Positions 39,135-44,118 of a stretch of DNA of 64,000 nt are shown here, in pieces. The translations under genes were made by a program, and so were the position numbers. Numbering within the stretch: the stretch's first letter is position 1; every line of letters starts with the position of its first letter. This stretch comes from Corynebacterium liangguodongii (GTDB taxonomy: Bacteria; Actinomycetota; Actinomycetes; Mycobacteriales; Mycobacteriaceae). Below the pieces are notes generated by a model. The model was not told the DNA's origin. It saw nothing but the letters and a program-made list of their open reading frames with translations, and ran no database searches. Where the stretch lies: positions 1,674,001 to 1,738,000 of the forward strand of contig NZ_CP026948.1 of the NCBI RefSeq assembly GCF_003070865.1, given 5' to 3'.

Positions 39135-39854
39135 CTACGCCTGCTCCATTATGCGCAGGCTTTTCAGCGCCGCCTCGAGGTGCCACTGCAGGTGAGCGGT
39201 GGTAAGCCGGTGTACCTCGGCGACGGCCTCCGTCTCTGCCGGGTGGCCGTGCTGCAGAAGCCACATCACGTGCAGGGTCTCCGGGTCGACGTCCGCCGAA
39301 CCGAGCGGGCGGCAGGCACTGCACACGGCCCCGCCCAGCGCGGCGTTAAACGCCCGGTGTGGGCCGGGTGCCTGGCAGTTTGCGCAGTCAAACAGGCTCA
39401 CGCCCCAGCCGGCCTGCTCCGTCGCGCGGAGGATGAAGGCGTCGAGCACGAGGGTGGGGTGGGAATCCGCGCGCTGGAGGTCTGCGAGGGCGGCGCTGGT
39501 GGCGTCGAAAAGCGCGCTGCCCTGCTCGGCGTAGGCGAGGCGTTCCGCCGTTTCCAACACCGCACAGCCGGCGGCGTAGCGCTCGAAATCCTCGATGATG
39601 CGGCTGGCGAAGTAGCCAACCGTGTCCGCCGCGGTGATGGTGGCGAGGTTGCGGCCCGGGTAGAGCTGTACGTCTAGGTCGACGAACGGCTGGATCCTCG
39701 ACCCGAAGCGCGAGCGGGTCTTTCGCACCCCCTTGGCCACGGCGCGCACGAGGCCGTGGCAGCGGGTGAGCAGGACCACGATGCGGTCTGCCTCGCCAAA
39801 GTCGTACGTGCGGATCACCAGCGCACGGTCGCGGTAGCTTGCCCTAGAAGCCAA
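39135..39854 (-). CDS. recO: DNA repair protein RecO
   Basis: A 239-residue recombination mediator that loads RecA on SSB-coated DNA. The OB-fold start [20 protein letters not shown] and a zinc ribbon (CANC near 160, CSAC near 180) are present. The start is taken as TTG at 39854, overlapping the era stop by 11 bp; no in-frame ATG or GTG lies close by. The overlap implies coupling with era. Confidence 0.93.
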
Positions 39855-40758
39855 GCCTGCCCAGCGCCTTCGGGTCGGATTGCCAGTTCTTGAGCACCTT
39901 GATGCGCAGGTCGAGGAAGACGTTTTGGCCGAGCAGCTCGATGATCTGCTTGCGCGCGCGGTGCACGATGCCGGAGAGCCTGCGCCCGCCCGGGCCCTCG
40001 ATAATGCTCTTCTGGCCGGGCCGCTCGAGGTACATCACCGCGTAGATGTTGAGGCGCTGCGGGTTGTCCGGATCCGGGTGCATCTCATCGACCTGCACGG
40101 CCACCGAGTGCGGCAGCTCCTCGCGCAGGCCCTGGAGCGCTTCTTCGCGGATGAGCTCGGAGATGCGCGTCTCGGTGTCTTCGTCGGTGACGTGGCCCTC
40201 CGGGTAGAACATCGGGCCTTCAGGCAGTGCCTGGATCAGGATGTCGAGCAGCACGTCGAGCTGGATCTTTTCGGTTGCGGAGACGGGCACGACCTCCGAG
40301 TCTGGGCCGAGCAGCTCGTGGAGCTCAAGAAGGCGCTCGCCGACGGTGTCCTTGCCGGCCTTATCCAGCTTGGTAACGATACCGATGATCGGCGTGTTCG
40401 GCTTGACCGAGCGGATCTGCTCCAGGATGTAGCGGTCCCCGGGGCCGATCTTCTCATCGGCGGGGATGGTCAGCCCGATGACGTCGACGTCGGCAAAGGT
40501 ATCCTTTACCACGTCGTTGAGCCGCTCGCCGAGCAGCGTGCGCGGGCGGTGCACGCCCGGCGTATCAACGACAATGACCTGCGCATCCTCGCGGTTGATA
40601 ATGCCGCGGATCGGGTGCCGCGTCGTCTCCGGCTGGTCCGCCATAATCGCGATCTTCTCCCCCACCAGCGCGTTCGTCAACGTCGACTTACCCGTGTTGG
40701 GGCGGCCGACGAAGCTGACAAAGCCGGAGCGGAAACCCTCGGGCGCGTTGAAGTCCAT
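39844..40758 (-). CDS. era: GTPase Era
   Basis: A 304-residue GTPase for 16S rRNA and 30S maturation. G1 GRPNTGKS, G3 DTPGVHRP, G4 TKLD, and a C-terminal KH domain about residues 225-300. The ATG at 40758 is favoured: TAGAAT (40767-40772) lies 8 nt upstream, while the longer frame to 40797 would start before that promoter. The usual partner corC is 3.4 kb upstream here because of the accessory pocket and pdxY. Confidence 0.96.
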   Translation of the reverse strand: MDFNAPEGFRSGFVSFVGRPNTGKSTLTNALVGEKIAIMADQPETTRHPIRGIINREDAQVIVVDTPGVHRPRTLLGERLNDVVKDTFADVDVIGLTIPADEKIGPGDRYILEQIRSVKPNTPIIGIVTKLDKAGKDTVGERLLELHELLGPDSEVVPVSATEKIQLDVLLDILIQALPEGPMFYPEGHVTDEDTETRISELIREEALQGLREELPHSVAVQVDEMHPDPDNPQRLNIYAVMYLERPGQKSIIEGPGGRRLSGIVHRARKQIIELLGQNVFLDLRIKVLKNWQSDPKALGRLGF

Positions 40759-40885
40759 GCTGGCCCATTCTAGCCCCGATTGAACACCAGAACTCATACG
40801 ACGCCGGGCGGTGCGTTCGAGGCGCCAAGGGTCGAGCGTTGCTCGCTTATCGACGCCCCATCCCCACCGCCGACATCCATGCCGA

Positions 40886-40921
40886 CCTCGAACGCCTCGA
40901 ACGCCTCGAACGCCTCGAACG
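40886..40921 (+). repeat. Four tandem copies of CCTCGAACG
   Basis: Exact 9-bp unit repeated four times without interruption; an inverted copy (CGTTCGAGG) is at 40814-40822. In one frame it encodes repeated LER triplets, but no gene around it is convincing. The rest of 40759-41084 shows no gene. Confidence 0.8.
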
Positions 40922-41084: not shown

Positions 41085-42529
41085 GGAGGGTGTCAGGAAG
41101 TTTGTGTGTGAGGCTCTGATCCAGAAGGAGTTTCACCGATAATGACTACGGTGTCACCGAAGAAAAACCATGACCAGGACAAGGTCAACGAGATCAGCGA
41201 GAAGCTGATGGAAAATCCTGAGCTCGCCAAGCTGATTGGCGAGTTGTCCACCTCCACTGACAATGCAAGCGATCTGGTCAAAGGCCTGTTGCAGGCATCG
41301 ATTAACGCTGGTCTGCAGGCGGAGATGGATGCACATTTGGGCTACGGCCATGCCGATCGTAAGGCGAAAGCCCGGGTGGAAACCGCACAGGAGAGCAATC
41401 ACCGCAACGGGTCGTACACCAAGACCGTTAATTCTGGGTACGGCGCGTTGGAAGTGACCATGCCGAGGGATCGTGCCGGCACGTTTGCTCCAAAGATGGT
41501 GCCCAAAGGCTCCCGTCGGCTCACAGAGCTCGACGACATGATTATCTCGCTGTACGCCGGTGGGATGACCGTGCGCGATATTCAGCACCATCTCGCCACC
41601 ACCCTCGGGGTGGATATGAGCCCAGATACGATCAGCACCATTACCGACGCGGTGTTAGAAGAGGTCATGATCTGGCAAAACCGCCAGCTCGACGAGTTCT
41701 ACCCAGTGATCTTCCTCGACGCGCTGCGAGTGAAGATCCGCGATGGCCACCGCGTGGTCAACAAGTCTTGCTACATGGCGGTAGGCGTCGACATGGACGG
41801 CATCAAACACATCCTGGGATTGTGGATCGCAGACAATGAAGGCGCCAGTTTTTGGGCATCCGTGTGCGCTGACCTTGCCAACCGTGGGGTCCAAGACGTG
41901 TTCATCGTCTGCTGCGACGGGCTCAAAGGCCTGCCGGAAGCCGTGGAGGCAACCTGGCCGAATTCCATGGTGCGAGATGAGTATCGTGCACCTGATCCGG
42001 GCGGCCAACAGGTGGGTGTCCTACCAAGACCGCAAACCCGTATCAAGTGCGCTACGGGAGGTCTACACCGCACCGAACGAGGACACCGCCCGCGCCGCCC
42101 TGGACGCGTTCGAGGCGTCCGAGCTGGGACGGAAGTATCCGCAATCGGTCAAGGTGTGGCGTGATGCGTGGGATCGGTTCGTGCCGTTTCTGCAGTTCCC
42201 GCCTGCGGCACGGCGGGTACTCTACACCACGAATTCGATCGAGTCACTCAATGCTGAACTGCGGAAAGCCACCCGCAACCGCGGCCAGTTCCCGAACGAT
42301 ACCGCGGCGCTGAAAACGCTGTGGCTGATGATCTGCAACATCGAGGACAAGCGCGCTGCCCAGCGAGCGAAGAAAGCCAAGCGCGCCATCGAATGCAACG
42401 GCTATATTGAAGGAGCGAAAGCCACCGGGTGGAAACAAGCCATCAACCAACTAGCCGTGGCTTACCCCGACCGATTCGCGGACTACTTGTAAACCAAGCC
42501 CCCCGCACACAAAGAATCGGACACCCTCC
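41085..42529 (+). mobile_element. IS256-family insertion sequence with terminal inverted repeats
   Basis: About 1445 bp. The left end GGAGGGTGTCAGGAAGTTTG and the reverse complement of the right end, GGAGGGTGTCCGATTCTTTG, match for the outer 10 bp and again in TTTGTGTG. The direct repeat CGCCCA is immediately outside both ends (41079-41084 and 42530-42535); IS256 members usually duplicate 8-9 bp, so this is a short or partly changed duplication. It holds one transposase gene that is frameshifted. Confidence 0.85.
41142..42492 (+). pseudogene. IS256/mutator-type transposase, interrupted by a +1 frameshift
   Basis: DDE transposase of the IS256 (mutator) family in two frames. The first frame runs from ATG 41142 through MPRDRAGTFAPKMVPKGSRR, the DALRVKIRDG segment and VFIVCCDGLKGLPEAVEATW. 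About 41975 the frame changes; the continuation reads SIVHLIRAANRWVSYQDRKP to a normal C-terminus at 42492. One extra base in gtgcgagatgag (expected gtgcagacgag) explains it. Without correction or slippage the element should be unable to move. Confidence 0.85.
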
Positions 42530-42670
42530 CGCCCATCGTTCCAGCGCAGAACACCAGAACGCGAGACTCGACTGGGCACGGGGTTCAGGTCTGGTTCCCT
42601 CGGACAATGGTCCAGCCCCGTTCAGTGCTTTTTGGAAAGTGTCCCACCCGGAAGTGTCTGGGTTGCGGAT

Positions 42671-42979
42671 TCTGCAACGGCGGAGTCCACTCCGAGACCG
42701 AAACCCTGCCCATTCTGCAACGGCAGAGTCAAAGTGCGGGTCGAAAATGTCCCCACTGCAGAGTCAAAGTGCGGGCGACTCTGCAACGGCAGAGTCCACG
42801 CGAAGACCGAAACCCTGCCCACTCTGCAACGGCAGAGTCAAAGTGCGGGTCGAAAAAGTCCGCAATGCAGAGTCAAAGTGCGGGCGACTCTGCAACGGCA
42901 GAGTCCACGCCGAGACCGAAACCCTGCCCACTCTGCAACGGCGGAGTCGAAGTACGGGCGACTCTGCAACGGCAGAGTC
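42671..42979. repeat. Array of seven hairpin 17-mers in a 109-bp tandem unit
   Basis: The 17-mer TCTGCAACGGC(A/G)GAGTC starts at 42671, 42714, 42780, 42823, 42889, 42932 and 42963. Spacings alternate 43, 66, 43, 66, 43, then 31. Full copies preceded by GAC form the perfect hairpin GACTCTGC-AACG-GCAGAGTC. Half copies TGCAGAGTC lie at 42757 and 42866, also 109 bp apart. The 26-bp and 49-bp linkers are conserved, so it is a tandem repeat, not a CRISPR. 109 is not a multiple of three, arguing against coding. Confidence 0.9.
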
Positions 42980-43266
42980 GAGGTGCAGCCACACGGGGCT
43001 ACATTTCGGGGAGTGACCAGAGCCCGTCAGCTGGGCGAGTACCAACTACCCACGTCTGACACGAGCCCTCTCGCTTGTCTGAACCCCACGTTGGGGGTGC
43101 GAGATCGCGCACTCGATTGAGGCGGGGCGGAGGCGGCAACCGTCAATGCGTGAAACCACACAGCGACGCGGCGAACTGCTCGAGCGCGGAAAGATCCTGG
43201 ATCGCGGAGTACACGCTCGCCCAACAGCCCCTCCAATGATTCGCTGCCCGCGCCAGGGCCCTGTCG
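42980..43266. other. No supported gene between hairpin array and pdxY
   Basis: Short open frames exist (for example one starting ATG 43146, RETTQRRGELLERGKILDRG), but none has a recognised family, ribosome site or sensible length. The stretch before the array (42530-42670) is equally without a supported gene; a 12-bp copy of GAACACCAGAAC at 42549 repeats one at 40782 on the other side of the IS. Confidence 0.4.
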
Positions 43267-44118
43267 TTAGAGGGCCTCGACCTCAAACTGCATCCGCGGG
43301 TCCGCGAAGGCGTCCTGCGTCTCCACGAGCTTAAGCTCGGGCGCTCCCGCCTGGTACGTCACCTCCAGCAGATCGAACACAGACGACGCCGTGCGCGCCA
43401 GCGCATCGGCGGCATCCCGGGTGCGCAGGTAGTGCCCCGTGAATAAGGCGGCGGTGACGTCGCCCGAACCATTGCGCTTGAAAGGCAGGCGCGGGGTTTT
43501 CACGATCCACTTGCCGGCATCGTCCACCACGATCATCTCCAGGACATTGACAGGGTCGGCCTCCGGGCGTTCCACCGAGGTCACCAGTACGGTGCGCGGG
43601 CCGATCTCGCGGGCCGCCTCAACCGCGTCGAGCGTAGAGGCGAGGTCCGTCGCCTCGCGGCCGGTGAGGTATCCCAACTCGAACTGGTTCGGGGTGATGA
43701 TGTCGGCCACGGGGACGACGCGGTCGCGCAGCAGCGGCGGGATGGTATCGGCCACGAAGCAGCCCGACTTCGCGTTGCCCATCACCGGGTCGCAGGCGTA
43801 GAGGGCCGACGGGTTGGCGGCCTTGACGCGGGCCACCGCGTCGATGATGACGTCGGCGATGTCGTCGCCGCCCTGGTAGCCGGACAAGATGGCGTCGACA
43901 CGCGAGAGCGCCCCGCGCTCATCGATGCCATCGATCACTGCCGCGACGTCAGCGGCGGGGATAATCGGGCCCCGCCAGGCACCGTAACCGGTGTGGTTGG
44001 AGTAGTTCACGGTGTAGACCGGCCACACCTCGTGGCCGATGCGCTGGAGCGGGAAGACCGCCGCCGAGTTGCCGACGTGCCCGTAGGCCACCGCCGACTG
44101 GATCGAGAGGATGTTCAT
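43267..44118 (-). CDS. pdxY: Pyridoxal kinase
   Basis: A 283-residue ribokinase-fold kinase phosphorylating pyridoxal for PLP salvage. The N-terminus MNILSIQSAVAYGHVGNSAA, the ACDPVMGN segment near 110, the ITPNQFELGYLTG segment and the anion-hole motif KRNGSGDVTAAL with catalytic Asp near 222 are classical. It lies in the pocket between corC and era, next to the IS, but has normal GC-rich codon use. Its ATG is 33 bp from the corC stop on the same strand. Confidence 0.93.
   Translation of the reverse strand: MNILSIQSAVAYGHVGNSAAVFPLQRIGHEVWPVYTVNYSNHTGYGAWRGPIIPAADVAAVIDGIDERGALSRVDAILSGYQGGDDIADVIIDAVARVKAANPSALYACDPVMGNAKSGCFVADTIPPLLRDRVVPVADIITPNQFELGYLTGREATDLASTLDAVEAAREIGPRTVLVTSVERPEADPVNVLEMIVVDDAGKWIVKTPRLPFKRNGSGDVTAALFTGHYLRTRDAADALARTASSVFDLLEVTYQAGAPELKLVETQDAFADPRMQFEVEAL

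Follow-up and report, generated by a model that had tools for sequence, protein, structure and literature searches.

Clustered palindromes with IS21-like ends in Corynebacterium liangguodongii: a candidate decayed miniature element

The window, a 64,000-nucleotide stretch of the Corynebacterium liangguodongii genome, includes a non-coding tandem array of palindromes (nucleotides 42668 to 42980, with no strand assigned) that was delimited by a repeat finder and motif mapping and consists of 109-bp units, the third of which is shortened. The palindromes belong to a family that is dispersed in the genome, the array is flanked by IS21-like ends in the expected orientation, and copy numbers differ between species at another cluster, which is orthologous. 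Sequence comparisons incline us, with modest confidence, to the view that the locus is probably a decayed, non-autonomous, IS21-derived miniature element (MITE), the palindromic interior of which would have been expanded by slippage or unequal recombination.

The array includes seven copies of a 17-mer, located at nucleotides 42671, 42714, 42780, 42823, 42889, 42932, and 42963, with spacings of 43/66/43/66/43/31. When up to 3 mismatches are allowed the window has 7 matches to the 17-mer, while 100 dinucleotide shuffles had a mean of 0.20 and a maximum of 2. Tandem Repeats Finder assigned to the array a period of 109, 2.6 copies, and 92% matches; together with the motif positions, this result bore out the seven 17-mers, their spacings, and the 109-bp unit of the original prediction. 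The array is composed of two full 109-bp units and a partial one. Units 1 and 2 are identical at 100 of 109 bases, and units 2 and 3 are identical at 59 of their first 62. Two type A palindromes (core ACTCYGCM-NN-KGCRGAGT) come first in each unit; one linker separates them, and another leads on to a type B palindrome (core ASTCCGCA-W-TGCGGAST) or to the right half of one. The claim that every copy with a leading GAC is a perfect 8-bp stem did not hold in general: with the three leading bases included, such a stem is formed by no more than 3 of the 7 type A copies; of the others, one matches at 7 positions and three at 6. The last spacing, 31, equals 66 minus 35, which would fit a 35-bp deletion between repeated AGAGTCAAAGTGCGGG stretches. 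Because there are differences between the units and the genome forms a single 2.36-Mb contig, the assembly collapse that the prediction had named as a possible artefact is unlikely. A coding repeat was rejected, since the 109-bp period and the 85-, 114-, and 119-bp repeat units of another cluster of the same genome (L029) do not keep a single reading frame (neither 85 nor 119 is a multiple of 3). A scan of the array for sigma-70-type promoters, using a model that may not suit Corynebacterium, found none.

The palindrome family is present at at least 13 places in the genome, in clusters at approximately 192, 269, 299.6, 336, 540, 631, 828, 899, 1066, 1278, 1316, 1716.7, and 1918.6 kb; isolated near-matches, such as those at 283.4, 334.7, and 1876.6 kb, are left out of this number. 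A 20-base degenerate pattern, searched with up to 3 mismatches, had 85 forward and 85 reverse matches versus 5 and 7 for the reversed control; the pattern is close to a palindrome, so most sites are counted once on each strand. Within a cluster the linkers are repeated, and from one cluster to another they differ; the periods include 38 (9 copies), 44, 103, and 114. As judged by the nearest reading frames, the flanking genes are convergent at the window array, L028, L036, and L037, divergent at L030, L154, and probably L035, and on the same strand at L031, L032, L034, and L155; L029 and L033 were left outside this grouping. The genes neighboring the clusters include rplL, rpsA, coaE, aspS, and dxs.

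The REP-like, intergenically scattered character that had been predicted was upheld by these places and extends to other members of the genus. Exact matches to an 18-base degenerate palindrome pattern were found in 6 of 201 sampled Corynebacterium genomes, while the reversed control had none in those six genomes and one in the other 195. The named genome collection, which may omit genomes very near that of the window, has 89 stretches matching the pattern, three of them from Corynebacterium (one with two sites); we take the other 86, each with a single site in an unrelated organism, to be chance matches. The genomes compared include C. lipophiloflavum (G021), C. qintianiae (G042), and Corynebacterium sp. 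Marseille-P4321 (G121). Many clusters in the relatives are longer and irregular; others, as in G059, are tandem. Cores are alike while the linkers bear no relation to one another, and this holds for orthologous loci too (L030, L141, L142, and L147; L037, L140, and L152). At the orthologous site between the LTD/collagen-like and DUF2334 genes, a 38-bp unit is present in 9 copies in the genome of the window and a 39-bp unit in 12 copies in G059, and C. lipophiloflavum has one palindrome. This difference in copy number fits the recombination hotspot that had been proposed, the comparison being one between species. Array length, which differs between species, may serve as a typing marker. The gene for the LTD, phosphatase-like and collagen-like protein itself includes a 165-bp tandem repeat (L037:3784-4279) that directly precedes the nine-copy array of the 38-bp palindrome unit.

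A 25-bp sequence, GGGCTACWTTTCRAAGAGCGC or a variant that ends in CCGTCGC, borders several of the clusters. Elsewhere this unit constitutes a doubled terminal repeat at both ends of elements of ~2.1 kb in other genomes, which show 5-bp duplications (GTGGG in L180 and GAGAA in L181) and encode proteins that exceed the NCBIfam cut-offs for the IS21 transposase and IstB. In the window, the left end (42619 to 42659, minus strand, aligned from 42627 with the outer tip extrapolated) has one 25-bp unit and resembles the istA side (score of 32 versus 27 for the istB side; empirical p 0.0033), and the right end (42989 to 43047, plus strand, aligned at 42989-43020 with a weak, extrapolated remainder) resembles the istB side (37 versus 28 for the istA side; empirical p 0.0003). 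The left end is the weaker match of the two. Both face outward; the interior is the array, with no transposase found between the ends, and no target duplication was recognizable at this site, where the tips are extrapolated. The earlier statement that no known element is recognized has to be amended, because the array is flanked by IS21-like ends.

Inward matches to IS21 ends were found at 10 of the 26 flanks of the 13 clusters (p ≤0.0033) and a match in the opposite orientation at 1, as evaluated against a null of 3000 random 130-mers from the fetched stretches of the same genome. At most 6 of the 13 clusters have IS21-like ends, four of them (the window included) on both sides and L032 and L033 on one side each, and the other 7 have none at p ≤0.0033. 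Where such ends are present they point outward and enclose the palindromes. Of the four two-ended clusters, three have one end best matched as the istA side and the other as the istB side, the right end of L028 being a near tie (47 versus 46). The two-ended element L155, about 115 bp long, has a single palindrome and, at its edges, a possible duplication, read by eye, that agrees at only 4 of 5 bases. A search of the genome of the window for IstA relatives found none at E 0.001; 17 of 25 genomes searched have one, some of the matches being weak. The 25-bp unit is present in 5 of the 6 palindrome genomes versus 22 of the 195 others (Fisher p 0.00017, with genomes treated as independent). In C. 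qintianiae a copy of an IS21 element is located inside a palindrome cluster, between two CCCTG copies that represent a 5-bp target duplication (L194), and L144, from the same place, shows the outer end of this copy. Since only 1 of 15 clusters of the relatives (L145) has an inward IS21 end, the palindromes do not depend on IS21-type elements, and the proposal that all clusters are IS21 miniature elements was dropped because in most of them such ends were not seen. Two 25-bp IS21 end units are also found at L128:4975-5030 (1490 kb), inside what by eye appears to be a relic of an IS3-type transposase gene; this end stretch had no plasmid match.

The array lies between a pdxY-like kinase gene on the right (43267 to 44118, minus strand) and, beyond an IS256-family element, an era-like GTPase gene on the left (39844 to 40797, minus strand). 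The pdxY-era interval of the nine relatives in which both genes could be placed has no palindrome cluster (a tenth, L219, had no era match and is outside this comparison); that of L221 has one isolated two-mismatch palindrome match. While the interval in the window holds the IS256 element and the array, those of the relatives carry other genes, so that the comparison shows absence of the cluster rather than an exact empty site. An HNH-type gene, identified by tblastn only, is found there in G020, G021, G042, and G059, and in G120 the pdxY and era alignments are only 63 bp apart. Because these intervals are without the cluster, the insertion appears to be particular to the lineage of the window among the genomes compared. 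A second pdxY-like gene or fragment adjoins pdxY in four relatives (L217, L218, L220, and L221). An origin from a plasmid or phage was rejected, as nucleotides 42600-43060 of the window have no match in plasmids or phages; we take the one exact core match in each of 17 viral contigs to be due to chance.

A possible history of a decayed IS21-derived element at this site can be outlined. Two ends derived from an IS21-family insertion sequence may have enclosed a cluster of a clade-specific REP-like palindrome in place of the transposase genes, and the element could at one time have been mobilized by IstA and IstB provided in trans. Once it had been inserted between pdxY and era, the 109-bp units would have arisen by slippage or unequal recombination, slippage being a presumed source, and a 35-bp deletion would have shortened the last one. 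The palindromes are found outside such elements too, and there other insertion sequences land in or near them. Any effect on transcription would be at most a side effect, and a dedicated role is not envisaged.

A different explanation, which we regard as a minor possibility and which recalls the protein-binding array of the prediction, is that a sequence-specific DNA protein (a regulator, a nucleoid protein, or a nuclease) binds to the palindromes and that the clusters are functional multi-site arrays under selection. Such selection could account for cores that stay constant while linkers are unrelated, at orthologous loci too, for the variable arm positions that do not compensate, as direct reading of half-sites predicts, and, in four species, for clusters located upstream of an HNH gene. 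However, no such protein is known, the sites used in the analysis of the arms were chosen by core match and their constancy is therefore partly built in, and species differ widely in the number of copies and in where they lie. The HNH gene, a possible partner of the palindromes, codes for a DUF222-HNH protein, which we take to be of the 13E12 type, and adjoins a cluster in L030 (genome of the window), L141 (G059), L142 (G042), and L147 (G020). Because the neighbor gene is the same, these are one syntenic locus in four species, with the palindromes just upstream of the gene; in the window's genome the stretch is L030:4572-6068. Promoter-like sequence, read by eye, lies between the palindromes and the gene. 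A paralogue is found beside another cluster of the same genome (L154), also with the palindromes upstream. Two of the four DUF222 matches in this genome adjoin a cluster, and the other two have only three-mismatch palindrome matches nearby; the chance value for this adjacency is 0.0009, assuming 2150 intergenic regions and computed after the pattern had been seen. The gene is present in 3 of the 15 cluster stretches of relatives (L139-L153), and among plasmids a single weak relative of the HNH protein was found. That the palindromes are the recognition sites of this nuclease, with the HNH protein in the role of RAYT, seems to us quite improbable; if true, it would be a REP-like system with an HNH protein where RAYT serves elsewhere.

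Explanations at the level of RNA or of local repeat growth were also weighed. The structured RNA array of the original prediction found no backing in the pairing of the arms, which was analyzed in 238 sites from the clusters of the window's genome and 16 stretches of relatives, selected by core match with up to 1 deviation per arm, a selection that partly builds in constancy at most arm positions. Type A comprised 158 sites with 130 distinct contexts. At position 5, the most variable, these are T/T in 36, C/C in 5, T/C mixed in 88, and T/A in 1, and the arms agree in 32% versus 53% expected if independent; at position 8 they agree in 55% versus 48%, slightly above independence. In type B, with 75 distinct contexts, the arms agree at position 2 in 39% versus 50%. 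The remaining positions hardly vary, and no clear sign of compensatory arm changes was found, so that an RNA hairpin selected for pairing is not supported. The Rfam scan of the window gave two matches at cut-off, both of them tRNAs, and none at the array. Folding of both strands, which the prediction had suggested, was indeed better than that of shuffled sequences (z -4.0 and -3.3), a result to be expected of any inverted repeat. It is also improbable that the clusters serve as multiple transcription terminators or insulators and are repeated only by coincidence. Type B is directional, as the centre base and the side of the A/T-run agree in 18 of 18 distinct sites with a run, and read toward the T-run it resembles an intrinsic terminator; a type B palindrome followed by a minus-strand T-run is found in the array (42855 to 42873, minus strand), and some clusters lie between convergent genes (L036 and L037). 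Yet no neighboring A- or T-run is found at 31 of the 49 distinct type B sites, type A generally lacks one, clusters are also located in divergent and same-strand gaps, and terminator-like sites in the region including the array (42500-43270) were 2 versus a shuffled mean of 1.1, not above chance. The tandem 109-bp structure would be compatible with a purely local minisatellite generated by slippage and unrelated to mobile elements, but this reading is contradicted by the dispersal of the copies, the same palindromes being found at 12 other places with other linkers, and by the IS21-like ends on both sides of the array, and we consider it highly improbable.

The palindromes resemble REP and BIME repeats, as these are described in the available text of two reports (PMC2817692, PMC3733652), in being short, imperfect, mostly intergenic, arranged in mosaic clusters with repeated linkers, and specific to a species or clade; they differ in that there are tens of sites and not hundreds. 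A Y1 (PF01797) RAYT transposase was found in none of 21 genomes searched, including that of the window and all six palindrome genomes (control detection, 5 of 14 including E. coli), and was rejected as the mover. GTAG was absent within 8 bases of the 69 distinct sites of the window's genome (shuffled mean 2.6); in the same sites CGTC was found 6 times versus 4.2, CCTC 10 versus 6.1, and TGTC 0 versus 2.9. Because neither Y1/RAYT nor GTAG was found, we do not file the palindromes as REPs, although they are alike in form. In the text available from the same reports, the GTAG and CGTC repeats on record come from other phyla, none from Actinobacteria, and the CGTC repeats are a palindromic family without a known mover (PMC3733652). 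A search of the literature by title or start of abstract identified no paper on a palindrome family of this kind, of which the print record may hold one. The likeness to MITEs resides in the lack of a transposase and in outward ends like those of an autonomous family (IS21) present in relatives; unlike MITEs, the ends are decayed and the interior consists of palindromes from a different repeat family, arranged as an array. The linkers repeat between units, in contrast to CRISPR spacers. With about a dozen clusters per genome in a small clade, the IS21-like carriers of some clusters and the syntenic HNH neighbor are concrete candidates for how palindromic repeats spread and grow.

REP and BIME repeats are landing sites of insertion sequences, according to the portions available of PMC2817692, PMC3733652, and PMC1525189. 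The insertion sequences that target REPs (PMC1525189) have a parallel here in the IS21 copy inside a cluster (L194) and in the IS256 copies that adjoin 2 of the 13 clusters (window and L028); IS21 is not mentioned in the text of that report, and the insertions in clusters seen here may be ordinary intergenic ones. The IS256-family element of the window (41088 to 42526, plus strand; 243.7 bits with the IS256 model, cut-off 150) is located beside the array, of which it is not a part, and has its gene in two overlapping frames. Its ends were taken by eye from terminal GGGTGTC and GACACCC, and it stops near 42526, ~90 bp short of the proposed edge of the miniature element. An origin of the array from IS256 was rejected since the open frame of the latter matches only the window and L028 among 13 cluster stretches of this genome and 15 of relatives. 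The two IS256 copies (window 41088-42526 and L028:2569-3591) are 98.5% identical in the first frame over 340 amino acids, with the same stop length. Upstream of the era-like gene, at nucleotides 40886-40921 of the window, there is a perfect tandem repeat of the 9-bp sequence CCTCGAACG in 4 copies.
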